This document shows, in pieces, positions 2-63,338 of a stretch of DNA of 64,000 nucleotides (position 1 is its first letter; the number at the start of each line of letters is the position of its first letter). The notes under the pieces were generated by a model. That model made no database searches. It saw only the letters and a program-made list of their open reading frames with translations, and was not told the origin of the DNA. A program made the position numbers and the translations under genes. This DNA is from Dokdonia sinensis (GTDB lineage Bacteria; Bacteroidota; Bacteroidia; Flavobacteriales; Flavobacteriaceae), in contig NZ_REFV01000002.1 in assembly GCF_003688895.1 (NCBI RefSeq), positions 248,001 to 312,000 on the forward strand, written 5' to 3'.

Positions 2-151
2 TGTTTCGGCATTTGCGAGTGGCAAGTATACGGTGCAGTAGCAACACTAAAAGTATATGGGCGTTTAAGCATTCTCTTTATAATGGCATTTTGTATAGTT
101 ACGCTTTCGCGAAAGCGTAAAAAAATCCCTACAAACTATAGACCACTCTAA
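2..151 (+). CDS. possible 3' end of a membrane protein gene (cut by window edge)
   Basis: The frame starting at base 2 is open to a TAA at 149-151. It reads as a short hydrophobic stretch (SILFIMAFCIVTL) followed by a basic tail (SRKRKK), which is how many inner-membrane proteins end. The repeated genomic palindrome at 99-120 lies inside it and encodes TLSRK. It would converge with and overlap the 3' end of the receptor gene on the other strand by 23 bases. Frame 1 is also open to base 120 but does not look protein-like. With only 49 codons visible no family can be named, and the segment may be non-coding. Confidence 0.3.
   Translation, partial: CFGICEWQVYGAVATLKVYGRLSILFIMAFCIVTLSRKRKKIPTNYRPL
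99..120. repeat. 22-bp genomic palindrome, perfect copy
   Basis: Perfect palindrome with half-site TTACGCTTTCG, followed by an A-run. It is the first of many copies in this window. It lies just beyond the stop of the minus-strand receptor gene and could also serve as a hairpin there. Confidence 0.9.
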
Positions 152-3829: not shown

Positions 3830-4720
3830 TTAGTTGATTTCCAGTCGGTAGCCCACCCCATGCACATTTGCAATTTTGATAGAGTCATCCTCTTTCAGCT
3901 TTTTGCGGAGTTTTGAAATGTAGGTGTCCAGACTTCGGCCTACAATGACGCCGTTGTCTTCCCAAACGCTTTTTGTAAGCTCCTCTCGCTTGATAATCTC
4001 ATTAGGTCTGGCGACAAATATGGCTAGGAGCTCGCACTCTTTGCGCGATAGGGGCAACTCTTTTGCTTCTTTTACAAGTTTGTTCTGTTCAGGATAAAAG
4101 TGAAAGCTTCCTAGTTTCTCATAATTTTCATTTGGTAAAGGCGATAGAGGTGTCCCTTTTTTGCTTTCGCGAAAACTTGTTCCGAATTCATTTCGGGAGC
4201 GGAAAACCACAAGTCCCAAAATTCCAAATGCAAATAACGTAATAGCGATCTTAGTGGTAGAAAGCGGTGCAGCCTCTTCTATAAAAAGGATTTCGATGGT
4301 ATGGCAAGCGTCCGGCACCTGCCGTCCGGAACAAGGTACGATCGTTTGCTCAATATCAATATTCATCTCGTAACTGTAGGATACCTCGCGATCTTCACAC
4401 CTGAGAACTTCGACAATATAATTTTCTGGTAATCCCGCTTTTGCAAAATTTTTATCAAGAATCGCAACAAGGCTATCAGGAAAAAACGTGAGTTCCTTCT
4501 CAAATGAGAGCTGGTATTTAAGAGGCTCCAGCTGAATGACAGGTAATATAATCGAAGTGCTGTCCTGGTTAGATAATAAAAGTTCATTCCCAACCTGACG
4601 TAAAGCAATTTTTACACGTTCGGGTAGTTTATTGTCAGGCTCTTCATGAAAGGGAACCATCCACGATATGGTAAGCAAGCAAATGATTGCTGTAATGATC
4701 TGTAGTTTTTTTGTGCTCAT
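3830..4720 (-). CDS. membrane-anchored winged-helix transcriptional regulator (ToxR-like topology)
   Basis: 296 residues. An N-terminal hydrophobic segment (about 8-24) precedes an extracytoplasmic domain of about 130 residues with two cysteine pairs. A second membrane helix at about 155-172 (IAITLFAFGILGLVVF) leads to a cytoplasmic C-terminal OmpR/PhoB-type winged helix at about 200-296. Visible DNA-binding features are LSRKECELLAIF, IIKREELTKSVW and the recognition-helix stretch SLDTYISKLRKKL, ending HGVGYRLEI. No receiver domain is present, so sensing probably happens outside the cytoplasm, as in ToxR/CadC, but with the DNA-binding domain at the opposite end. It is divergent from the YceI gene and sits upstream of the GLPGLI and receptor genes, its likely targets. 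The repeat palindrome, degenerate here, encodes FRES at 4162-4175. Confidence 0.75.
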   Translation of the reverse strand: MSTKKLQIITAIICLLTISWMVPFHEEPDNKLPERVKIALRQVGNELLLSNQDSTSIILPVIQLEPLKYQLSFEKELTFFPDSLVAILDKNFAKAGLPENYIVEVLRCEDREVSYSYEMNIDIEQTIVPCSGRQVPDACHTIEILFIEEAAPLSTTKIAITLFAFGILGLVVFRSRNEFGTSFRESKKGTPLSPLPNENYEKLGSFHFYPEQNKLVKEAKELPLSRKECELLAIFVARPNEIIKREELTKSVWEDNGVIVGRSLDTYISKLRKKLKEDDSIKIANVHGVGYRLEIN

Positions 4721-6950: not shown

Positions 6951-6972
6951 TTACGCTTTCGCGAAAGCGTAA
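6951..6972. repeat. 22-bp genomic palindrome, perfect copy
   Basis: Perfect copy, half-site TTACGCTTTCG, located 5 bp after the katG stop codon and immediately before the katG terminator. Confidence 0.9.
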
Positions 6973-9322: not shown

Positions 9323-9344
9323 TTATGCTTTCGCGAAAGCGTAA
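9323..9344. repeat. 22-bp genomic palindrome, one-base variant
   Basis: TTATG instead of TTACG on the left half; the inner 14-mer at 9327-9340 is exact. It lies in the 242-bp gap between katG and the MarC-like gene, where I see nothing else apart from a possible weak TACCTTTG (-7 type) element at 9402-9409. Confidence 0.85.
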
Positions 9345-12578: not shown

Positions 12579-12598
12579 TACGCTTTCGCGAAAGCATA
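12579..12598. repeat. genomic palindrome, one-base variant
   Basis: TACGCTTTCG then CGAAAGCATA; the inner 14-mer at 12582-12595 is exact. It lies in the gap between the dCMP deaminase start and the HupE-like gene stop, two same-strand genes. Confidence 0.85.
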
Positions 12599-18196: not shown

Positions 18197-18218
18197 TTAC
18201 GCTTTCGCGAAAGCGTAA
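18197..18218. repeat. 22-bp genomic palindrome, perfect copy
   Basis: Perfect copy 10 bp after the acetyltransferase stop and 86 bp before the aspartokinase start. Confidence 0.9.
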
Positions 18219-24067: not shown

Positions 24068-24490
24068 CTAACTTAGGTGCTCTGCAATAAAGTTTTTGCA
24101 ATATGCTTTTATTTCTTCTCTCGCTTTCGCGAAAGCGGCCTCCTTCTCATCTTCAGTTCCTTCTAGTTTTGAAGGGTCGTAAAAGTTGTGATGTAACCGT
24201 ACGGCATCTGGCGCAGCGATAAATGGACAGTTTTCATAAGCGTGGTCACATACGGTAATGATAAAATCCCAAGAAACGCCCTGATATTCATCTACGTGAT
24301 TTGAGGTATGACCTGTGATATCTATGCCATCCTTTTTCATCGTAGCAGCGGCTCCAGGATTAATACCATGCGTCTCAATTCCTGCAGAATAGACATTAAG
24401 CTTATCACCAGCAACTTTCTGTAAATACCCGTGTGCCATCTGGCTACGACAGCTGTTTCCTGTGCAAAGTACTAGTATGTTTCTTTTCAT
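24068..24490 (-). CDS. arsC: arsenate reductase, low-molecular-weight phosphatase type
   Basis: 140 residues. The phosphatase P-loop is LVLCTGNSCRSQMAHGYL (CxGNxCRS). Pairs of further Cys occur as VCDHAYENCP, matching the thioredoxin-linked ArsC family in which three Cys act in turn. The enzyme reduces arsenate to arsenite in the cytoplasm. It is the last of three co-directional arsenic-type genes. No arsenite exporter (ACR3/ArsB) or ArsR is adjacent. The genomic palindrome lies inside the gene (24122-24137) and encodes AFAKA. Confidence 0.9.
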   Translation of the reverse strand: MKRNILVLCTGNSCRSQMAHGYLQKVAGDKLNVYSAGIETHGINPGAAATMKKDGIDITGHTSNHVDEYQGVSWDFIITVCDHAYENCPFIAAPDAVRLHHNFYDPSKLEGTEDEKEAAFAKAREEIKAYCKNFIAEHLS

Positions 24491-25564: not shown

Positions 25565-26347
25565 TTAAGCTCCTTTAAAATTTGCCTTCCTTTTTTCAAG
25601 AAAAGCTGTTGTTCCTTCGGTAAAATCATCTGTCCCAAAGCAGTTTCCAAAAGCCTCGATTTCGGCTTCATAACCGTTTACACCGTCTTTAAACCCTGCA
25701 TTTACTGCGCCTATTGCCACAGCAATGGCTACTGGCGAATTACGCATAATTTTACTGGCAAGCTTTTCTGCAAGAGTAATTAGTTCATCTTGTGGTACTA
25801 GATGATTTATAAGCCCATAATCTAATGCTACGGTTGCGTCTATCATTCCTGCGGTCATTATCATTTCCATTGCGCGGCCTTTTCCTACCAGTTGTGGTAG
25901 GCGTTGCGTTCCTCCATATCCTGGGATAACCCCAAGTGACACTTCTGGTAGTCCCATACGTGCATTGTCGCTGGCAATTCTAAAATGAGCTGCCATCGCT
26001 AGTTCTAAGCCACCTCCTAACGCAAAACCGTTTATAGCTGCAATTACCGGAGTTCCTAGATTTTCGACAAAATCAAAAAGTTGTTCTTGCCCTATTCTAG
26101 CAAGCGCGGCACCTTCGGCTACTTCAAAGTGGGCAAACTCAGAGATATCTGCGCCCGCCACAAAAGCTTTTTCGCCTGAACCTGTGATGATAATCACTCT
26201 AGTGTCTGTATCCGAGTCTGCTTTTGCAAAAGCGTTATGCAACTCATCAATCGTTTCTCTATTTAAGGCATTGAGTTTAGAGGGACGGTTTATGGTAATG
26301 GTCGTGATACCGTTTGCCGTTTCGGATAGGATGTTGTTGTATGACAT
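25565..26347 (-). CDS. enoyl-CoA hydratase/isomerase (crotonase) family protein
   Basis: 260 residues. The oxyanion hole residues lie in GEKAFVAGADISEF and INGFALGGGLELAMA. Both catalytic Glu positions are present (GGGLELAMAAHF and GLPEVSLGVIPGYGG), so hydratase activity is likely. The protein would act in fatty-acid beta-oxidation or a related degradative route, on enoyl-CoA thioesters. It follows the NtrY-like kinase gene on the same strand across a 123-bp gap that holds a split palindrome with a 24-bp insert. Confidence 0.9.
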   Translation of the reverse strand: MSYNNILSETANGITTITINRPSKLNALNRETIDELHNAFAKADSDTDTRVIIITGSGEKAFVAGADISEFAHFEVAEGAALARIGQEQLFDFVENLGTPVIAAINGFALGGGLELAMAAHFRIASDNARMGLPEVSLGVIPGYGGTQRLPQLVGKGRAMEMIMTAGMIDATVALDYGLINHLVPQDELITLAEKLASKIMRNSPVAIAVAIGAVNAGFKDGVNGYEAEIEAFGNCFGTDDFTEGTTAFLEKRKANFKGA

Positions 26348-28547: not shown

Positions 28548-31500
28548 TTATTCCTCTCCCTCCACAAACAAATAATCCAGCTTCAAACTATTAAACTCAT
28601 CATTAAACTTTGCCACCTCGCCGTCCAGCATGTTATCAAAAGCTTCTAACTGTGTATTGATTTCGGCGGTTAACTGATTTTTTACAGCGACATCTTGGTC
28701 TGTAGGGCCAAAATCCCCCATCCCTACGAGACTGTTTAAATGTCCTAATTTGTTGGTAAGCCTGATTGGAAAATTGAGTGGATCTTGACCTGAGCGATTT
28801 TTGGTTTGGTAAAGTTCTTTTTCAATCTTGCCAAATTCTTCCTGCATCGTTTCTGCTTTTTTACGTAAATCTGTCGTACGACTATCGTCCTTATATTGGG
28901 TGGTAAAAGCTTTAAGTTGACTATTAATTTTTCTGATCTTTTTAATACTTTGGTGTGCGCGGTTTACAGATTTATTGACATCTGCAATAAAGTCAAATTG
29001 CTTTTGCATATCTGCAATGGTAGCTTCGGCATTAGGATTTGCGAGTATTTCAAAAGATTCGGTTTGTACTTCCCCATTAATATTTAAAGAGACATTGTAC
29101 TTGCCTGGTGTGGCTTTAGGACCATCAAGATCTGCCCACCATAAAATCATTTTTTTGAGTTCCTCTGCTCCTTTGATTCTAGTATCCCAAGCAAACATAT
29201 TTCCTCCTTTTTTTACTTCGAGAGAATCCTCTTTTTTCTTTGCAGCAGTACTAAAAGATCTTAATGTGTCTCCACTTTTGCGCGTGTAAGTCAAGCTTAT
29301 GGTGTCTTTTTTCTTGTCGTAGTTAGGGATGTTAAAATAAGTGATTACTCCTGCAGGATGATTTGTTCCTTCGGTCAGGCTTGCTTTTTTACTACTAGAG
29401 CCTCCCATTCGGTAGGTGGGTTTAGGCTTAAAGAGTTTGTTTGTTTTTGCTTTCGCGAAAGCGGACTGATGCAACATCCCTAAGTCATCTATAATCCAAA
29501 GACTACGTCCCTGAGTAGCTACAATTAAATTATCATCCTTTATGGTAAGGTCTGTAATGGGAACGATAGGTAAATTAAGTTGAAATGAACGCCAATTTTT
29601 GCCGTCGTCAAAGCTTATGTACATACCCGTTTCTGTTCCAGCATAGAGTAGCCCCTTTTGTTTAGGGTCTTCACGTAAAACACGCGTAAAATGTTCTGCA
29701 GGAATACCGGTTGTAATCTTTTTCCAAGATTTTCCGTAATCGGTCGTTTTATATAAATAGGGCGTAAAATCACCTAATTTATATCGTGTTCCTGCTACAT
29801 AGGCCGTTCCTTCATCAAAGGCACTCGGCTCCACGCTGTTTATCATCATATTTGCAGGCATACCCTTAGGTGTTACGTTTTCCCAGCTCGTTCCACCATT
29901 TTGAGTAATATGTACGAGACCGTCATCACTTCCTACCCAAAGTAATCCTTCTTTAAGAGGTGACTCTGCTGCTGCAAAAATGGTACAGTAATACTCTACC
30001 GAGGTATTGTCTTGTGTAATGGGTCCACCCGAAGATTTCATTTTTTCGGGGTCATTTGTTGTTAGGTCGCCACTTATGACCTTCCAACTCTGTCCCTCAT
30101 TCTCACTCACGTGTACGCTCTGAGAAAAAGTGTACAGACGGTCAGGGTTATGCTTTGAAAAAATAATAGGAAAATTCCATTGGAATCGGTATTTCATATC
30201 CTCTACACCGTGCCCCATAGGGTTGTCTGGCCAGACAGAAACCGAGCGTACCGTGTTTTTATCGTGATTTACCCGGGTTAAAAAACCGTCGTAGCTCCCT
30301 CCGTAAACGATCTCATTATTTTCTGGATCTACAGCAATATGTGCAGATTCTCCTCCTGCGGTACTTTCCCAATCATCTTCGCTTATACTTCTGTTCTCCG
30401 TGCGGTGGGGAATCCTGATCGTGCTATTATCCTGCTGCGCGACATAAATTCTATAAGGAAATGCATTATCTGTGGTCACTCGATAAAATTGTGCTGTGGG
30501 CTGGTTCATATAAGTACTCCAAGAACGACCACCATCATAAGAAACCTGTGCTCCACCATCATCACCTATAATCATACGCTTAGGATCTTCTGGAGCAATC
30601 CATAGATCGTGATGGTCACCGTGAGGAGCATTGTAGGTGCTAAAGGTTTTTCCGCCATCTGTAGATTTGTGATAGCGCACATTGAGCACGTAGACTGTAC
30701 TTTCATCCTTAGTATCTGCATATAGCCTTGTGTAGTACCAAGCACGCTGGCGTAATTTACGCTCATCGTTTATTTTTTTCCAAGTATTTCCTGCATCTGT
30801 AGAGGTGTAAAGACCACCTTCTTTTTGATTCTCAACCATAGCGTACAAACGATTACTGTTTGCTGGGGATACGGTAATGCCCATAATACCTAGAGTGCCT
30901 TCTGCAAAGCCTTCTTTTTTAGAAATCTCTTTCCACGTTTCTCCGCTATCTGTACTCTTCCATAGTGCAGAGCCTTCTCCTCCAGAACTTAAACTATAAG
31001 GTGTACGTCGTGCGTTCCAAGTGGTTGCATATAAAACTCTGTGATTATTTGGGTCTATAATTAAATCTACGACTCCACTATTTTCGTTAGAAAATAGAGT
31101 TCTTCTCCAAGTTTTACCTCCATCTGTACTCTTGTAAACTCCACGCTCCTGTGTAGGTTTATATATATTTCCTAAAACACCTGCATATACGATGTCAGAA
31201 TTTGTAGGATGTACTCGTATTCTAGGGATGTGACGGCTTTCTTTTAAGCCTGATTCAAACCACGTTTTTCCAGCATCTTCAGATTTCCAAATACCATATC
31301 CTGATGAAACATTACCGCGTAGGGTTTTTTCTCCGCCTCCTACGTAAATGACATTTGGGTCACTTTTTGAGACCTCGACCGCGCCTATACTTCCACCAAA
31401 AAATCCGTCAGAGATATTTTCCCATTCCTTACCTCCATTTATCGTACGCCACACGCCACCGCCCGTACTTCCCATATAAAACAAGTCTGGTTGTCCAGGT

Positions 31501-31655
31501 ACCCCAGTCACGGCTGCACTACGTCCACCTCTAAAAGGACCGATGAGACGGTATTGGAGTGCTTCATAATTAGACTCATCTGGGGTTTGTGCAATACTTT
31601 CTAAAGAGATTCCTGACCATATAGCGAGGAATAAAAGGAGGAAATTGATTTTCAT
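28548..31655 (-). CDS. secreted VPS10/BNR-type beta-propeller protein
   Basis: About 1035 residues with a signal peptide (MKINFLLLFLAIWSGISL). Many BNR/sortilin-type repeats of the form SxDGGKTW occur (STDGGKTW, SEDAGKTW, SYDGGRSW, TTDYGKSW), forming one or two propellers over about residues 30-730. The C-terminal third is unrelated to the repeats and includes a coiled, charged region (about 900-1000). Proteins of this build are common in Bacteroidetes and annotated as glycosyl hydrolases or sortilin-like, without firm enzymatic evidence. I chose the ATG at 31655 since the earlier one (31694) gives a poor signal start. A palindrome copy in the gene (29449-29462) encodes AFAKA. Confidence 0.8.
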   Translation of the reverse strand: MKINFLLLFLAIWSGISLESIAQTPDESNYEALQYRLIGPFRGGRSAAVTGVPGQPDLFYMGSTGGGVWRTINGGKEWENISDGFFGGSIGAVEVSKSDPNVIYVGGGEKTLRGNVSSGYGIWKSEDAGKTWFESGLKESRHIPRIRVHPTNSDIVYAGVLGNIYKPTQERGVYKSTDGGKTWRRTLFSNENSGVVDLIIDPNNHRVLYATTWNARRTPYSLSSGGEGSALWKSTDSGETWKEISKKEGFAEGTLGIMGITVSPANSNRLYAMVENQKEGGLYTSTDAGNTWKKINDERKLRQRAWYYTRLYADTKDESTVYVLNVRYHKSTDGGKTFSTYNAPHGDHHDLWIAPEDPKRMIIGDDGGAQVSYDGGRSWSTYMNQPTAQFYRVTTDNAFPYRIYVAQQDNSTIRIPHRTENRSISEDDWESTAGGESAHIAVDPENNEIVYGGSYDGFLTRVNHDKNTVRSVSVWPDNPMGHGVEDMKYRFQWNFPIIFSKHNPDRLYTFSQSVHVSENEGQSWKVISGDLTTNDPEKMKSSGGPITQDNTSVEYYCTIFAAAESPLKEGLLWVGSDDGLVHITQNGGTSWENVTPKGMPANMMINSVEPSAFDEGTAYVAGTRYKLGDFTPYLYKTTDYGKSWKKITTGIPAEHFTRVLREDPKQKGLLYAGTETGMYISFDDGKNWRSFQLNLPIVPITDLTIKDDNLIVATQGRSLWIIDDLGMLHQSAFAKAKTNKLFKPKPTYRMGGSSSKKASLTEGTNHPAGVITYFNIPNYDKKKDTISLTYTRKSGDTLRSFSTAAKKKEDSLEVKKGGNMFAWDTRIKGAEELKKMILWWADLDGPKATPGKYNVSLNINGEVQTESFEILANPNAEATIADMQKQFDFIADVNKSVNRAHQSIKKIRKINSQLKAFTTQYKDDSRTTDLRKKAETMQEEFGKIEKELYQTKNRSGQDPLNFPIRLTNKLGHLNSLVGMGDFGPTDQDVAVKNQLTAEINTQLEAFDNMLDGEVAKFNDEFNSLKLDYLFVEGEE

Positions 31656-31727
31656 TTTTTTGTTGGTTTTTATCTTGAGAAGAAAATTAAGCAATTCTCT
31701 ACTAGGACGGAAGTGGGTTCAGGGTTT

Positions 31728-35860: not shown

Positions 35861-36562
35861 ATGATTAAGCTCACAGACCAAGATTACAAAGATGGACAAG
35901 TGCTTCTCTTTGACAAACCACTGGAATGGACCTCGTTCCAGCTCGTGAATAAAGTACGCTGGCTCATCCGTAAAAATCTGAATATCAAAAAGATAAAAGT
36001 AGGTCACGCGGGAACGCTGGATCCACTAGCGACTGGATTGATGATTATTTGCACAGGAAAGTTTACTAAGCGCATCAGTGAATTTATGGGTCAGGAAAAG
36101 GAATATACTGGGACTATAGTTTTGGGCGCAACGACGCCCAGTTACGATCTGGAGTCTGAAGTAGACAAAACATTTCCTACGGAGCATATTACTGAGGAGG
36201 CTATTTACGCTTTCGCGAAAGCGTACCAAGGAAAAATACAACAACGTCCACCCATATTTTCTGCCCTTAAGAAAGATGGAAAACGCCTATACGAATTTGC
36301 AAGAGCAGGTGAGGAAGTAGAAATTCCAAAACGGGAAATCCACATTTCGTCTTTTGAAATTACTCGCATCTCAATGCCAGAGGTAGACTTTAAGGTGCGC
36401 TGTAGTAAAGGCACCTACATCCGTTCTCTAGCTTATGATTTTGGTCTAGGACTAGAGAGTGGGGCACACCTTACTGAACTACGCAGAACCAAAATAGGTG
36501 ACTTTTCCGTAGATACAGCACAGACTATCGAAGGCTTTGAGGCAAGTTTTGGCTATAGTTAG
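35861..36562 (+). CDS. truB: tRNA pseudouridine(55) synthase TruB
   Basis: 233 residues. The catalytic Asp lies in VGHAGTLDPLATGLMIICTG. KPLEWTSFQLVNKVR near the start and CSKGTYIRSLAYDFG in the C-terminal part are typical TruB features. It makes pseudouridine at position 55 of the T-arm of elongator tRNAs. A perfect 20-base core of the genomic palindrome (36206-36225) lies inside the gene and encodes YAFAKAY in the middle of a helix. It follows the lipoprotein gene by six bases. Confidence 0.93.
   Translation: MIKLTDQDYKDGQVLLFDKPLEWTSFQLVNKVRWLIRKNLNIKKIKVGHAGTLDPLATGLMIICTGKFTKRISEFMGQEKEYTGTIVLGATTPSYDLESEVDKTFPTEHITEEAIYAFAKAYQGKIQQRPPIFSALKKDGKRLYEFARAGEEVEIPKREIHISSFEITRISMPEVDFKVRCSKGTYIRSLAYDFGLGLESGAHLTELRRTKIGDFSVDTAQTIEGFEASFGYS
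36206..36225. repeat. genomic palindrome inside truB
   Basis: Perfect 20-bp copy (TACGCTTTCG plus complement) read as YAFAKAY. Shows that the repeat is tolerated inside an essential-type RNA-modification gene. Confidence 0.9.
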
Positions 36563-38710: not shown

Positions 38711-39379
38711 CTACATTGAAGGGTATTCTAAATATTTTAAAAATTCTTCTCTAGGAATTTCGGCAGCGCCTAGGCTGGAGAGATGGTCCGTGTACATCTG
38801 GCAATCTATGAGATGGTAATTTTGTTTTGTAAGCTTTCGCGAAAGCGTAATAAACCCCACTTTACTTGCATTGCTCACAGTAGTAAACATACTTTCCCCA
38901 CAGAAAACTCCTTTGTCTTTTAAGTCTACACCATATAATCCTCCTACTAATTCATCTTCATACCAGACTTCTACAGAAATGGCGTGTCCTAACTCGTGCA
39001 GATTGAGATAGGCCTTAACTATCGAATTTGTAATCCAAGTACCGTTCTGACCATCTCGTTTTATACGTTTACAGGCAAGAATGACTTCAAGAAAATTCTG
39101 GTTATAAGTTACCTTAAAGGTGTTGTCTTTCAAGATCTTGCGCATAGATTTTGAAACATAGACATCCTGAGGTTTTACGACCATCCTAGGGTCTGGTGTC
39201 CACCACAGTATGGGTTGCCCTTCATTGTACCACGGGAAGATGCCAGAGTTATACGCAAGTAGTAGCCAGTCCTTATCAAGACTGCCACCTACCATAAGTA
39301 ACCCTTCCTCATCTGCTAGATGATGGTCTGGGAACCAAGGGCCATTATCCCACGGATGATTTTCTGGAAGTTCTAACAC
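38711..39379 (-). CDS. aat: leucyl/phenylalanyl-tRNA-protein transferase
   Basis: 222 residues, standard for Aat. It contains the conserved start of the catalytic domain (DEEGLLMVGGSL, YNSGIFPWYNEGQPILWWTPDPR) and EVWYEDELVGGLYGVDLKDKGVFCGESMFT. The enzyme adds Leu or Phe to proteins with N-terminal Arg or Lys, marking them for ClpAP/ClpS degradation (N-end rule). A palindrome copy (38833-38846) lies in the coding region and encodes LSRK, a different frame from the truB copy. Confidence 0.94.
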   Translation of the reverse strand: MLELPENHPWDNGPWFPDHHLADEEGLLMVGGSLDKDWLLLAYNSGIFPWYNEGQPILWWTPDPRMVVKPQDVYVSKSMRKILKDNTFKVTYNQNFLEVILACKRIKRDGQNGTWITNSIVKAYLNLHELGHAISVEVWYEDELVGGLYGVDLKDKGVFCGESMFTTVSNASKVGFITLSRKLTKQNYHLIDCQMYTDHLSSLGAAEIPREEFLKYLEYPSM

Positions 39380-41272: not shown

Positions 41273-41294
41273 TTACGCTTTTGCGAAAGCGGAA
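41273..41294. repeat. genomic palindrome, variant copy
   Basis: TTACGCTTTTG then CGAAAGCGGAA. It lies between the flavin reductase gene and the divergent kinase gene. Confidence 0.7.
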
Positions 41295-42533: not shown

Positions 42534-43108
42534 CTAGAGTCAAAAACATACAGGAAGAGATACACTACGAGGGATTTGCGTCCATCCGAGAGGTGACCTT
42601 TGATTATCAAGATACTCAGGGAGATTGGCACCATATAAAGCGGGAAGTGTACGATCGCGGTAATGGAGCAAGTGCGTTGCTTTATAATCGTGAGCGCAAC
42701 ACGGTATTGCTTACAGAACAATTCAGAATGCCCTCTTTTCTTAACGGAAATCCCTCTGGAATGCTCATAGAGGCCTGTGCTGGAAAACAGGACGAGACCG
42801 ACCCTAAAAAAACAATACTTCGTGAGATAGAAGAGGAGTTAGGTTACAAACTGCCCGCTGTGGAGAAGGTAATGGAGGTTTATATGACCCCTGGAGGAAG
42901 CACGGAGATCATCCATTTATATCTGGGTGAATATTCAGATGAGTGCAAGGTAAATGATGGAGGTGGGTTAGATTGTGAGCAAGAAGATATAAGGGTTGTT
43001 GAGTATGCTTTTGCAAAAGCGTTATCACTCATAAAAACTGGAGAAATTAAAGACGCCAAAACAGTCATTCTATTACAGCATCTGCAACTCTCAGGTATTA
43101 TGGATTAG
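42530..43108 (+). CDS. Nudix hydrolase (NudK/ADP-ribose pyrophosphatase-like)
   Basis: 192 residues. The Nudix box is spread over CAGKQDETDPKKTILREIEEELGYKL (GxnREIxEELGY), with the upstream MLIEACAGK stretch that in NudK-type enzymes reads ELPAG. It hydrolyses nucleoside diphosphates linked to a sugar or other group. The start is the GTG at 42530, overlapping the kinase stop. A degenerate palindrome copy at about 43013-43032 encodes YAFAKAL. Confidence 0.88.
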   Translation: MTRVKNIQEEIHYEGFASIREVTFDYQDTQGDWHHIKREVYDRGNGASALLYNRERNTVLLTEQFRMPSFLNGNPSGMLIEACAGKQDETDPKKTILREIEEELGYKLPAVEKVMEVYMTPGGSTEIIHLYLGEYSDECKVNDGGGLDCEQEDIRVVEYAFAKALSLIKTGEIKDAKTVILLQHLQLSGIMD

Positions 43109-45532: not shown

Positions 45533-47947
45533 TTAAAACGTTAAGGTTGCGCCTGCAAGAAAATTAATCCCCGCTTGTGGATAGTATCCTGCACCCTCAA
45601 CAGTTGTAATTTCTCCAGGCACAGTAAAATCATCGTCAAATGTAAAGAAGTACCCATTAGAAACATATTTCTCATCAAAAATATTGTTTACCAGCACATT
45701 AAACACCACGGATTTGAATACTGAGAGATTTTTAAGCTCGTACGAAACGTTTAAGTCGTTAATAAAAAACGAATCTAACAAAGAGTTCTCACAATCAATA
45801 TTACCCAGATATTGTTCTCCCACATATTTTGACAAGAAGCTTACGCGAAAATTCTCGAAAGGTCTATACTCGATCGTATTTCCTATAACAATCTCTGGAG
45901 AGTAGGCAATGTTAGTATTCCCTAGATTAAGAAGCACCCCATCACGACGAAAGAGGAAATCCCTGTTTTTATTTGTGCTTAAAGCCACATTAGGCATCAC
46001 CGAGAGTTTGTTTGTCACCGCAACGGCCGCGTCTATTTCTATTCCTGCGCGATAACTATCACTATTTACTCGTATTGGGGCACCCACATTATCTAGCTCT
46101 CCTGTCGGGATAAGCTGGTCTGAGTATGCCATATAATAGCCATTTACATTAAGCTTTACTTTTGCTGTGTTAAATCTCCATCCTAGCTCAAAATCATTCA
46201 GTTTTTCTGCTTGCGGGTCGCCGTTTTCAAAATCCGTACGGCTAGGCTCACGGTTTGCCCTAGCGTATGAGGCATAAAACTGGTTACTCTCGTTCAGTTT
46301 GTAACTCAGTCCGGCCTTTGGGTTAAAGAAGTTGTAGTTTTCATCTACGATAAATTCTTCGATGTCCGAGTTTATTCCATCTGTTTTGTAGGTGATAAAT
46401 CTCCCTTGCAAGTCTAGATATGCGCTCCATTGTGGGGAGATGCGGAAGTCCGCTTTCGCGAAAGCGGAAAATTCATCTTTCTCCCCCGTCCCAAAGTAAT
46501 AGTTGTCACCCGTCTCGCTATCGCTGGCAAAACGTGCCCAAATCACTTCGCCAAAATGATCTCCGTCATACTTACTCGCATATAATCCGGAAGTGACATC
46601 CCAAGAACTGTCCTTGTAATTTACACTAGCACTAGCTACGTAAAAATCGTTATCCAGCCAGCGACGTCTTATAATATCTGTGGTTGTAATCGTCTCGCCT
46701 CCAATGGTCACATCATCCAGCCCGTAAAAAGCCAGCGAACTTTCATTGCCAAAATTCACATTCTGCTCGAACCAATCGTCCACATATTCTTCAAAGAAGC
46801 CACGACCATAAGTGTAGTTTAAACTCACCTGTGAGCTCCAGTTATTGTCATAGCGCTCATTCCAATGCAGTTGATAGTGATCTTGCTTATAATCATCTAC
46901 TTGATTGTTGTGAAAACCAGTAAGATTGCCCTCATTGTCATATTGTGCTCCCGCAGGGTTGAAGGTAGGATTGTTATCTACCGTTGCTTGGTCTACCCCA
47001 AACCAAGATTGATATGTCACCTCAGACCCGGCAAAGTTGATTGCCTTTATGAGAGTGTTGTCATCTTTATATGCCGCTTGAAGAAAATAAGACTTTAAAT
47101 CTGAGCTTGCACGGTCTATGTAGCCGTCAGATTTTATTTGGGAGATCCTTCCCGAAATTTCTACGTGCTCATTGAGCAGTCCAGTGCTGAATTTTACATT
47201 GTGACGTCGCGTGTTAAAGGAACCGAAGGAGTTGTTTATTTCGCCGTAAGGCTCCTCAGAAACAGCATCCGTAAGAATATTCAAACTTGCCCCAAAAGCT
47301 GCCGAACCATTTGTACTCGACCCCACACCTCGCTGTAATTGTAAACTCTCCACAGAGGAGGTAAAATCCTGAAGGTTTACAAAAAAGGATGTGAGACTTT
47401 CTGAGTCATTATAAGGTATACCGTTTATTGTCACATTAATCCCTTGATTCCCCGTGCCGCGCACTCTAAAACCGGTGTAGCCTATCCCTGCTCCCGCGTC
47501 AGACGTGGTGACGACTCCTGGCAGGAAGTTGAGCTGGGTAGCGATGTCCTGACCTAGATTGCGCTTTTCTAAATCTTCAGCATCTAGGTTAGAGTGTGTG
47601 ATGGGCGAGTCTGCATCTACACGGATGGCGCTTACTAGGACTTCGTCTAGACTTTCGGTTTTCTGAAACAACTGAATGTTTAGAATTTGGTCATTTTCGA
47701 CGTTTATCTCGTGTTGCTCACTCGTATAGCTCATATAGTTGAACTCAATGATATGAGTCCCTTTTTCGAGACTTAAAGTGTATTTTCCCTCTAAATCTGT
47801 CGTGGTGCCGTTTGTAGTGCCTTTTTGAGTTACGTTAGCTCCTGGTAGCGGCCCCTCTGCATCTGTCACTGTTCCAGATACCGTAAATGTCTGTCCAAAA
47901 CTGATTGCTGTAAAAAGCAAAACTGCAAAAAATAGGATTTTTTTCAT
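45533..47947 (-). CDS. TonB-dependent receptor, TPP-riboswitch controlled (likely thiamine or precursor uptake)
   Basis: About 804 residues. The signal peptide is KKILFFAVLLFTAISFGQ. A carboxypeptidase-like domain follows at about 20-95, then the plug (LDEVLVSAIRVDADSPIT, IGYTGFRVRGTGNQGINVTING) and a large barrel ending AGATLTF. The leader carries a TPP aptamer, so the substrate is probably thiamine or a thiamine precursor; this matches the TPP-regulated omr1-type receptors of Bacteroidetes. The ATG at 47947 is preferred to 47983. A palindrome copy (46449-46468) inside the gene encodes AFAKA. Confidence 0.88.
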   Translation of the reverse strand: MKKILFFAVLLFTAISFGQTFTVSGTVTDAEGPLPGANVTQKGTTNGTTTDLEGKYTLSLEKGTHIIEFNYMSYTSEQHEINVENDQILNIQLFQKTESLDEVLVSAIRVDADSPITHSNLDAEDLEKRNLGQDIATQLNFLPGVVTTSDAGAGIGYTGFRVRGTGNQGINVTINGIPYNDSESLTSFFVNLQDFTSSVESLQLQRGVGSSTNGSAAFGASLNILTDAVSEEPYGEINNSFGSFNTRRHNVKFSTGLLNEHVEISGRISQIKSDGYIDRASSDLKSYFLQAAYKDDNTLIKAINFAGSEVTYQSWFGVDQATVDNNPTFNPAGAQYDNEGNLTGFHNNQVDDYKQDHYQLHWNERYDNNWSSQVSLNYTYGRGFFEEYVDDWFEQNVNFGNESSLAFYGLDDVTIGGETITTTDIIRRRWLDNDFYVASASVNYKDSSWDVTSGLYASKYDGDHFGEVIWARFASDSETGDNYYFGTGEKDEFSAFAKADFRISPQWSAYLDLQGRFITYKTDGINSDIEEFIVDENYNFFNPKAGLSYKLNESNQFYASYARANREPSRTDFENGDPQAEKLNDFELGWRFNTAKVKLNVNGYYMAYSDQLIPTGELDNVGAPIRVNSDSYRAGIEIDAAVAVTNKLSVMPNVALSTNKNRDFLFRRDGVLLNLGNTNIAYSPEIVIGNTIEYRPFENFRVSFLSKYVGEQYLGNIDCENSLLDSFFINDLNVSYELKNLSVFKSVVFNVLVNNIFDEKYVSNGYFFTFDDDFTVPGEITTVEGAGYYPQAGINFLAGATLTF

Positions 47948-48120
47948 CCGTAAAAATTTTTTAGTTACGAATACAAAGGGCAAATATTCTACGAGTGTTA
48001 TTAGTAATACCTGTCTGCCGGTGGCAAACGCATTGAAGAGGTTTCAACTTGTCTAGGCAAGTCGCTTCTCAAGAGAAAGGACGTCATTAGTTCTCGACTA
48101 CGCTCGAACGGACCTTCATT

Positions 48121-52035: not shown

Positions 52036-52051
52036 CGCTTTCGCGAAAGCG
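52036..52051. repeat. genomic palindrome copy
   Basis: CGCTTTCG plus complement, exact 14-mer at 52037-52050, between the TM2 terminator and the Lrp gene stop. Confidence 0.85.
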
Positions 52052-52643: not shown

Positions 52644-52665
52644 TTACGCTTTCGCGAAAGCGTAA
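52644..52665. repeat. 22-bp genomic palindrome, perfect copy
   Basis: Perfect copy in the intergenic region between the Lrp gene and the homogentisate dioxygenase gene, where promoters of both are expected. Confidence 0.9.
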
Positions 52666-57550: not shown

Positions 57551-57570
57551 TACGCTTTCGCGAAAGCGTA
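57551..57570. repeat. genomic palindrome, 20-bp copy
   Basis: Perfect TACGCTTTCG plus complement, in the 220-bp gap before the LytS-type kinase gene. Confidence 0.9.
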
Positions 57571-62405: not shown

Positions 62406-63338
62406 ATGAAGATAGAGCCTGATATAGAAAGACTCATCGACGCGCTCGATGATAAATACGAGAAAATAGACCAAGATCTAGATGATCATCTTGAGGGTCT
62501 ATTACAAAGCAAGCCCATTACCTATTGGGATTACATCCATACAGATGCTTTGCTCAATTTACAATTACCCCGCACAAGCTTTCCAGATGAGAACGTATTC
62601 ATAATGTACCATCAGGTTACAGAGCTTTACTTTAAAATGGTGCTTTGGGAAATTGAGCAAGTATGTCACCATCCTAATCTTACAGCAACCTTTTTCAGCT
62701 CTCGATTGGGTAGGATAAGTCGTTATTTTGATATGCTTACATCTTCCTTTACCATCATGAAAGATGGAATGGATCTCGAGCAGTACATGAAGTTTAGAAA
62801 AACGCTCACTCCTGCTAGCGGTTTTCAGAGTGCGCAATATCGTAAGATAGAATTTGCAAGCACCGACTTGATAAATTTAATAGATGCACGCTTTCGCGAA
62901 AGCATAGATCGCAATACTCCCTACGAACACGCGTTAGAACATCTGTACTGGCAAGCGGCGGGAAAGGACTATAATACAGGTAAAAAGTCTTATTTGCTTA
63001 CTGCTTTTGAAGAGAAATATAAAAACGACTTCATTGCCTTTACAAAAGAATATAATACCATAAATTTGTACGCCAAATTTAAGAGCCTACCCAAAAGTGT
63101 TCAACAAGACCAAAAGTTGCGTGATGCAATGCGTCACTACGATTACACGGTAAATGTCACTTGGGTAATGTCACATTATAATACGGCAAATCACTATCTT
63201 AATAACGGAAAGACACCTGTAGAGGCAACAGGAGGTAGTGAGTGGACAAAGTATATGCACCCTAAATACCAGCGTAGGATTTTCTTTCCCGACGTATGGA
63301 CGGCTCAAGAGCTGGAAAACTGGGGACAAAATGTTTAA
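62406..63338 (+). CDS. kynA: tryptophan 2,3-dioxygenase family protein
   Basis: 310 residues. The family segments LLNLQLPRTSFPDENVFIMYHQVTELYFKMVLWEIEQ, FQSAQYRKIEF and YHxY-type HYDYTVNVTWVMSHYNTANHYL are present. The enzyme would open the indole ring of tryptophan with a haem. A palindrome copy (62890-62903) lies in the gene and encodes FRES. Its stop overlaps the ATG of the metallopeptidase-like gene (TAATG), as in other Flavobacteria. Confidence 0.85.
   Translation: MKIEPDIERLIDALDDKYEKIDQDLDDHLEGLLQSKPITYWDYIHTDALLNLQLPRTSFPDENVFIMYHQVTELYFKMVLWEIEQVCHHPNLTATFFSSRLGRISRYFDMLTSSFTIMKDGMDLEQYMKFRKTLTPASGFQSAQYRKIEFASTDLINLIDARFRESIDRNTPYEHALEHLYWQAAGKDYNTGKKSYLLTAFEEKYKNDFIAFTKEYNTINLYAKFKSLPKSVQQDQKLRDAMRHYDYTVNVTWVMSHYNTANHYLNNGKTPVEATGGSEWTKYMHPKYQRRIFFPDVWTAQELENWGQNV

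Follow-up and report, generated by a model that had tools for sequence, protein, structure and literature searches.

Throughout the Dokdonia genome, the 14-letter palindrome GCTTTCGCGAAAGC and the longer symmetric context around it form a signal that is kept at the level of the DNA. The window, that is, the whole 64-kb stretch analysed, corresponds to contig C12:248001-312000 of a 3.65-Mb Dokdonia genome (G000, hereafter the source genome), whose truB has its nearest named relatives in Dokdonia. It contains 14 exact matches to CTTTCGCGAAAG, which was never found in 100 dinucleotide shuffles. All 14 matches extend to GCTTTCGCGAAAGC, for which the number expected in the window is about zero. The source genome as a whole holds 857 copies of the 14-mer, again against an expectation of about zero, and the reversed control sequence is absent.

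Within the window, intergenic copies are located at 103..116, 6955..6968, 9327..9340 (between divergent genes), 12582..12595, 18201..18214, 52037..52050 (between convergent genes), 52648..52661 (between divergent genes) and 57554..57567. The initial annotation assigned six of the 14 exact copies to genes, and the analysis confirmed the assignment together with the encoded peptides and frames; Pfam matches back the gene names. AFAKA is encoded four times, in an LMW-phosphatase/arsC-like gene (copy at 24123..24136; gene 24068-24490, minus strand), a BNR/sortilin-type gene (29449..29462; 28548-31694, minus strand), truB (36209..36222; 35861-36562, plus strand) and a TonB-dependent receptor gene (46452..46465; 45533-47983, minus strand). 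LSRK is encoded in the Leu/Phe-tRNA transferase gene aat (38833..38846; 38711-39379, minus strand), and FRES in the tryptophan 2,3-dioxygenase gene (62890..62903; 62406-63338, plus strand). The truB copy forms the core of a 20-bp palindrome, TACGCTTTCGCGAAAGCGTA (36206-36225), and the copy in the BNR/sortilin-type gene occurs at the same place in a congeneric genome, G298. Two diverged genic copies had also been described correctly: GCTTTCGCGAAAAC at 4163..4176, with one mismatch, encodes FRES in a regulator gene, and GCTTTTGCAAAAGC at 43007..43020, with two, encodes AFAKA in a NUDIX gene. Another one-mismatch copy, GCTTTTGCGAAAGC, is intergenic (41277..41290). The double C>T variant GCTTTTGCAAAAGC, itself a palindrome, also encodes AFAKA in an enoyl-CoA hydratase gene (26220..26233); with 5 copies in 845 kb of the source genome, it is possibly a decayed or alternative form. 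One-mismatch copies are scarce, numbering 37 versus 202 exact copies in a sample of the source genome and at least 27 versus 346 in G298. Where copies on source contigs C1 and C12 have two mismatches, these often remove the two outer bases of a single side (e.g., ATTTTCGCGAAAGC and GCTTTCGCGAAAAA), as though half an outer site were enough.

The signal is restricted to few lineages. All 18 Dokdonia genomes carry the 14-mer, at 369-905 copies each. Among 298 Flavobacteriaceae genomes from 236 genera, only those of g11 (578 and 664 copies) and genome G190 (408 copies) were also rich, the carrier genera besides Dokdonia being g11 and g191; the other genera surveyed had mostly no copy and in a few cases up to 19. 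Every genome of a phylum-wide sample except the source had 0-4 copies, and flavobacterial loci around truB outside Dokdonia had at most one each. No other dispersed 10-12-mer was comparable in about 65 flavobacterial loci (up to 20 kb each) outside Dokdonia. We found no paper containing the 12-mer and none on a Dokdonia palindrome. Across 13 near-complete Dokdonia genomes of 2.9-5.5 Mb, copy number was roughly constant, with no significant increase in larger genomes (r=0.34, p=0.25), and density dropped (rho=-0.69, p=0.009), as if added DNA lacked the palindrome. Low-GC chunks were likewise poorer in the palindrome, in a comparison made at genome scale and not gene by gene.

The initial annotation proposed that the DNA rather than the peptide is what is kept, a proposal supported by truB, by retention between two species and by the composition of fourfold-degenerate flanking positions. 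All 17 Dokdonia genomes in which truB was matched carry the 14-mer intact, free of synonymous changes, while the adjacent codons vary. None of 70 aligned outgroup truB genes has the palindrome; most read (A/T)T.QF at this place, with length unchanged. Since carrier and outgroup truB genes align at the site with no gap, the peptide is a block substitution and not an insertion, the distinction that alignment with orthologues had been proposed to make. Nine of the 11 other Dokdonia aat loci have the palindrome and none of 59 outgroups does; of the broken copies, one reads LSGK and one LSQK. Outgroup TonB-dependent receptors often have FAKA in other codons, indicating that the receptor peptide is older than the palindrome, which here sits on a pre-existing FAKA; for aat, pre-existence of the peptide is partial (LxRKL). 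Conservation of the peptide without the repeat, which would have refuted the proposal, is thus met locally, at the receptor and in part at aat, but not at truB or genome-wide.

Comparison of the source genome with G298 (median protein identity 78%; G298 sampled at 36%) extended this result beyond single genes. Among 35 alignable coding sites, 20 are retained, one of them in another frame (AFAKA versus LSRK), and only 3 of the 35 keep the peptide without the exact 14-mer. As a background for the same pair, the 14 nucleotides underlying an identical five-residue peptide are unchanged in 8.6% of 27,120 windows. Nine of 11 intergenic sites are kept at syntenic places, against about 1.8 by chance. 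The two-species comparison rests on no more than 35 sites in genes and 21 informative ones between genes.

The constraint reaches beyond the core. The commonest bases outside it give TACGCTTTCGCGAAAGCGTA, with CG/TA adjoining the core. G and T predominate and C is scarce in the roughly 20 bp 5' of the core; in the roughly 20 bp 3' of it, A and C predominate and G mostly stands at 2-12%. At fourfold-degenerate positions 10-22 nt from the core, C amounts to 5% on the 5' side and G to 4% on the 3' side, compared with 18% and 16% genome-wide. Simple deamination is excluded because both G and T are increased on the 5' side. Within single copies the flanks pair no more than expected from composition, and thus form no longer hairpin. 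The same flank skew and the same extended motif occur in the distant genus represented by G190, which suggests, as an inference from sequence, that the carriers' reader is homologous between Dokdonia and G190.

In 845 kb of the source genome (contigs C1 and C12), where genes were called with a simple ORF model made for this analysis, 117 of 202 copies are coding. The use of all three frames noted in the window holds in this larger sample but is uneven (AFAKA 68, LSRK 31, FRES 18); G190 has 32 AFAKA copies, with 9 and 8 in the other two frames. Copies are 4-6 times denser between genes than within them, and the density differs little among tandem, divergent and convergent gaps. Coding copies lie in permissive protein segments, with a local identity of 63% versus 77% for the gene (p=1e-4). 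The first 40 residues contain 26 coding copies on C1 and C12 versus 12.8 expected. These near-N-terminal copies often set AFAKA at the end of a signal peptide, from which we infer that AFAKA can double as the AXA site of signal peptidase.

The copies are also anti-clustered, at a mean spacing of about 4.2 kb. On the two source contigs, the coefficients of variation were 0.64 and 0.59, compared with 1.01-1.02 in simulations that retained the coding/intergenic split, and gaps shorter than 1 kb numbered 2 versus 24.5 expected and 6 versus 21.3 expected. Spacing is also even in G298 (variance 2.6 versus 5.7 per 20 kb, p=0.0001) and G190 (p=0.009), and no ori-ter gradient is visible over G298. The longest palindrome-free stretch, 17.7 kb at C1:139866-157520 of the source genome, may be recently acquired DNA.

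By analogy with DNA-uptake sequences, we read the palindrome as a signal that marks DNA as self during exchange and that spreads through biased uptake and recombination; our confidence in this reading is slightly short of even, and both the uptake step and the reader are inferred. A reader in the competence or recombination machinery would prefer fragments with one copy. Homologous replacement by such fragments would repair damaged copies and spread new ones, until there was about one copy per exchanged-fragment length. Palindromic symmetry would allow uptake to start in either orientation, and the skewed arms may aid strand opening or RecA loading. Abundance, coding share, permissive sites, spacing, orthologous retention and substitution together match the published DNA-uptake sequences (DUS) and uptake signal sequences (USS). 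The Haemophilus influenzae uptake sequence has 65% of its copies in ORFs, and uptake sequences are evenly spaced, scarce in newly acquired DNA and spread via point mutation (PMC1939737, PMC7811141). They occupy permissive parts of core genes with a spacing that matches conversion fragments (PMC2397512), and they are conserved at orthologous sites (PMC1939737, PMC2397512, PMC7811141). Among the properties expected of such sequences, over-representation, DNA-level constraint in coding regions, even spacing without terminus bias and the presence of competence genes are all met; orientation bias is not applicable to a palindrome, which has no orientation. An association with the core genome and scarcity in acquired DNA are no more than hinted at, by the fall in density with genome size and the poorer low-GC chunks. 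Counting against the uptake reading, known uptake sequences are non-palindromic (PMC1939737). A signal of 14 bp or more is also long, its spacing is wide, USS have more one-mismatch copies per perfect copy than seen here, and the competence genes (ComEC and the DUF5689 pair) are present in palindrome-free genomes too.

Within the same phylum, Riemerella columbina has been shown to prefer its own DNA, but no clear signal emerged when one was sought (PMC7965970). Counterparts of Riemerella competence genes in the source genome are ComEC and a DUF5689 protein adjoining an outer-membrane receptor (C12:325847-330124). Neither the DUF5689 protein nor its partner receptor tracks the palindrome across genomes, and a search for the reader found no unusual similarity among carriers for AddB, DUF5689 or the partner receptor. 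The DUF5689 protein (C12:328676-330124, locus L237; also L233) occurs with two different C-terminal domains: that of the source genome resembles those of G190 and g11, and that of the congeneric G298 resembles those of G076 and G144, a pattern that suggests domain swapping. To our knowledge, Bacteroidota lack type IV pilus competence, and well-established uptake sequences are limited to Neisseriaceae and Pasteurellaceae. Our literature search found neither competence or biased uptake in Dokdonia nor a description of such a self tag for DNA exchange in this phylum. The palindrome might be the first DNA-uptake or self-recognition sequence in Bacteroidota, palindromic, with long strand-skewed arms and shared by three separate Flavobacteriaceae genera, a distribution from which we infer that the reader was probably horizontally acquired; we advance this broader claim with greater reserve, as one that could well prove wrong.

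The same observations bear on other explanations. A dedicated chromosome-organising (accessory nucleoid) protein that binds one site per few kb in three Flavobacteriaceae genera would suit the even spacing, the dimer-type palindromic core, the strong maintenance of each copy, the absence of an ori/ter gradient over G298 and the sharing of the extended motif with a distant genus. We consider it unlikely, though a serious contender: longer chromosomes do not have significantly more copies, about 20 bp of G/T versus A/C strand skew per side is unusual for protein binding, and no candidate protein was identified. Each genome has a single chromosomal-type ParB in the ParB_N search, with no Noc-like, palindrome-specific second copy; only G299 and the palindrome-poor G144 gave a second match, of 616 aa. 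With none found, a Noc-like ParB paralogue was rejected as the reader. If the palindrome is instead the site of a chromosome-organising or recombination protein, that site would be new and unusually dense. The skewed arms themselves underlie the idea of a bidirectional Chi-like hotspot, at which AddAB or RecA loading would respond from either side. The G/T-rich 5' side of each strand is where RecA would be loaded after a Chi-type switch, in either direction; G/T-rich 5' DNA would favour the RecA filament, RecA having a preference for TGG-type DNA (PMC3763553). This function, too, is inferred, and we regard it as rather improbable. AddAB-type genes are present, but AddB is not specially alike in the palindrome genera (43% between the source and G190, 38% between the source and G241), and the source AddB is 46% identical to that of G144, a Leeuwenhoekiella genome with only 9 copies. 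One copy per ~4.2 kb is close to the density of Chi in E. coli, but the Chi sites known so far are short and lack symmetry, so the expectation of a short oriented site is not met by a 14-bp palindrome, and Chi would not need to be anti-clustered at the 1-kb scale.

Two further explanations find little support. HIP1, a highly iterated palindrome of cyanobacteria, is linked to methyltransferases (PMC4390886), and the Dokdonia palindrome could likewise be a product of a DNA methyltransferase or of methylation-dependent repair bias; a variant in which TpG/CpA replaces each CpG does exist. This is very improbable, since the inner hexamer TCGCGA is not enriched outside the full core (155 versus 118 and 115 versus 153 expected), the C5-methyltransferase family PF00145 is missing in three of five Dokdonia genomes, G190 and G241, and the flank skew and even spacing would remain unexplained. 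We rejected a C5-methyltransferase origin because the hexamer is unenriched and PF00145 is absent from most carriers; adenine and N4 classes were outside the search. A hairpin-forming palindrome enriched between genes would suit a REP/RAYT-type mobile palindromic element or a transcription terminator, yet we find either scarcely credible. The Y1 transposase PF01797 is absent from four of five Dokdonia genomes and from G190, and truB shows replacement at constant length without insertion; convergent gaps are not preferred, and of 77 palindromes at gene ends only 3 are followed by a T-run. These results refute both as a general explanation.

The palindrome can also serve as a donor mark for tracing gene transfer. 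Several otherwise palindrome-poor genera have a few copies clustered inside metal-efflux genes, namely those for an RND pump, an outer-membrane efflux protein, a heavy-metal P-type ATPase and a Fur-like regulator (L206 3640-8606 and 14038-16605; L207; L209; L212; L218; L219), some with an identical spacing of 933 bp. These Dokdonia-type clusters look like resistance islands from a palindrome-rich donor whose mark may have been retained. Viral contigs have mostly single copies among the matches listed. One of 39.8 kb (IMGVR_UViG_2617271332_000001, L297) has three copies within 11 kb and may stem from a host rich in the palindrome, either as its prophage or as contamination. Since this marine genus can be cultured and its signal is clear, genus-wide and evenly spaced, the question of whether Bacteroidota exchange DNA in a species-specific way can be put directly to the test.

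Compared with known systems, the Dokdonia palindrome resembles HIP1 in being a lineage-restricted palindrome with very many copies per genome, but differs in its longer core, long skewed flanks and even spacing, and in lacking an enriched inner methylation motif or a common C5 methyltransferase. Sites of the Noc/ParB/MatP/SlmA type are likewise a dispersed class of palindromic sites, typically with far fewer copies; the Dokdonia palindrome, unlike them, is not confined to a chromosome domain and has no associated ParB paralogue. With Chi it shares a similar density and G/T-rich DNA 5' of the site, whereas Chi is oriented and 5-8 bp long and AddB is not specially similar among the palindrome carriers. 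From the DUS of Neisseriaceae and the USS of Pasteurellaceae it differs in being palindromic, in its long core of 14 bp and its strand-skewed G/T and A/C arms, and in a spacing (4.2 kb) wider than in Neisseria and Haemophilus. It shares with them a very high copy number in both coding and intergenic DNA, permissive sites, even spacing, a preference in flank composition, conservation at orthologous sites and spread driven by substitution; scarcity in added DNA may be a further common trait, as the fall in density with genome size, though not a gene-by-gene comparison, suggests.
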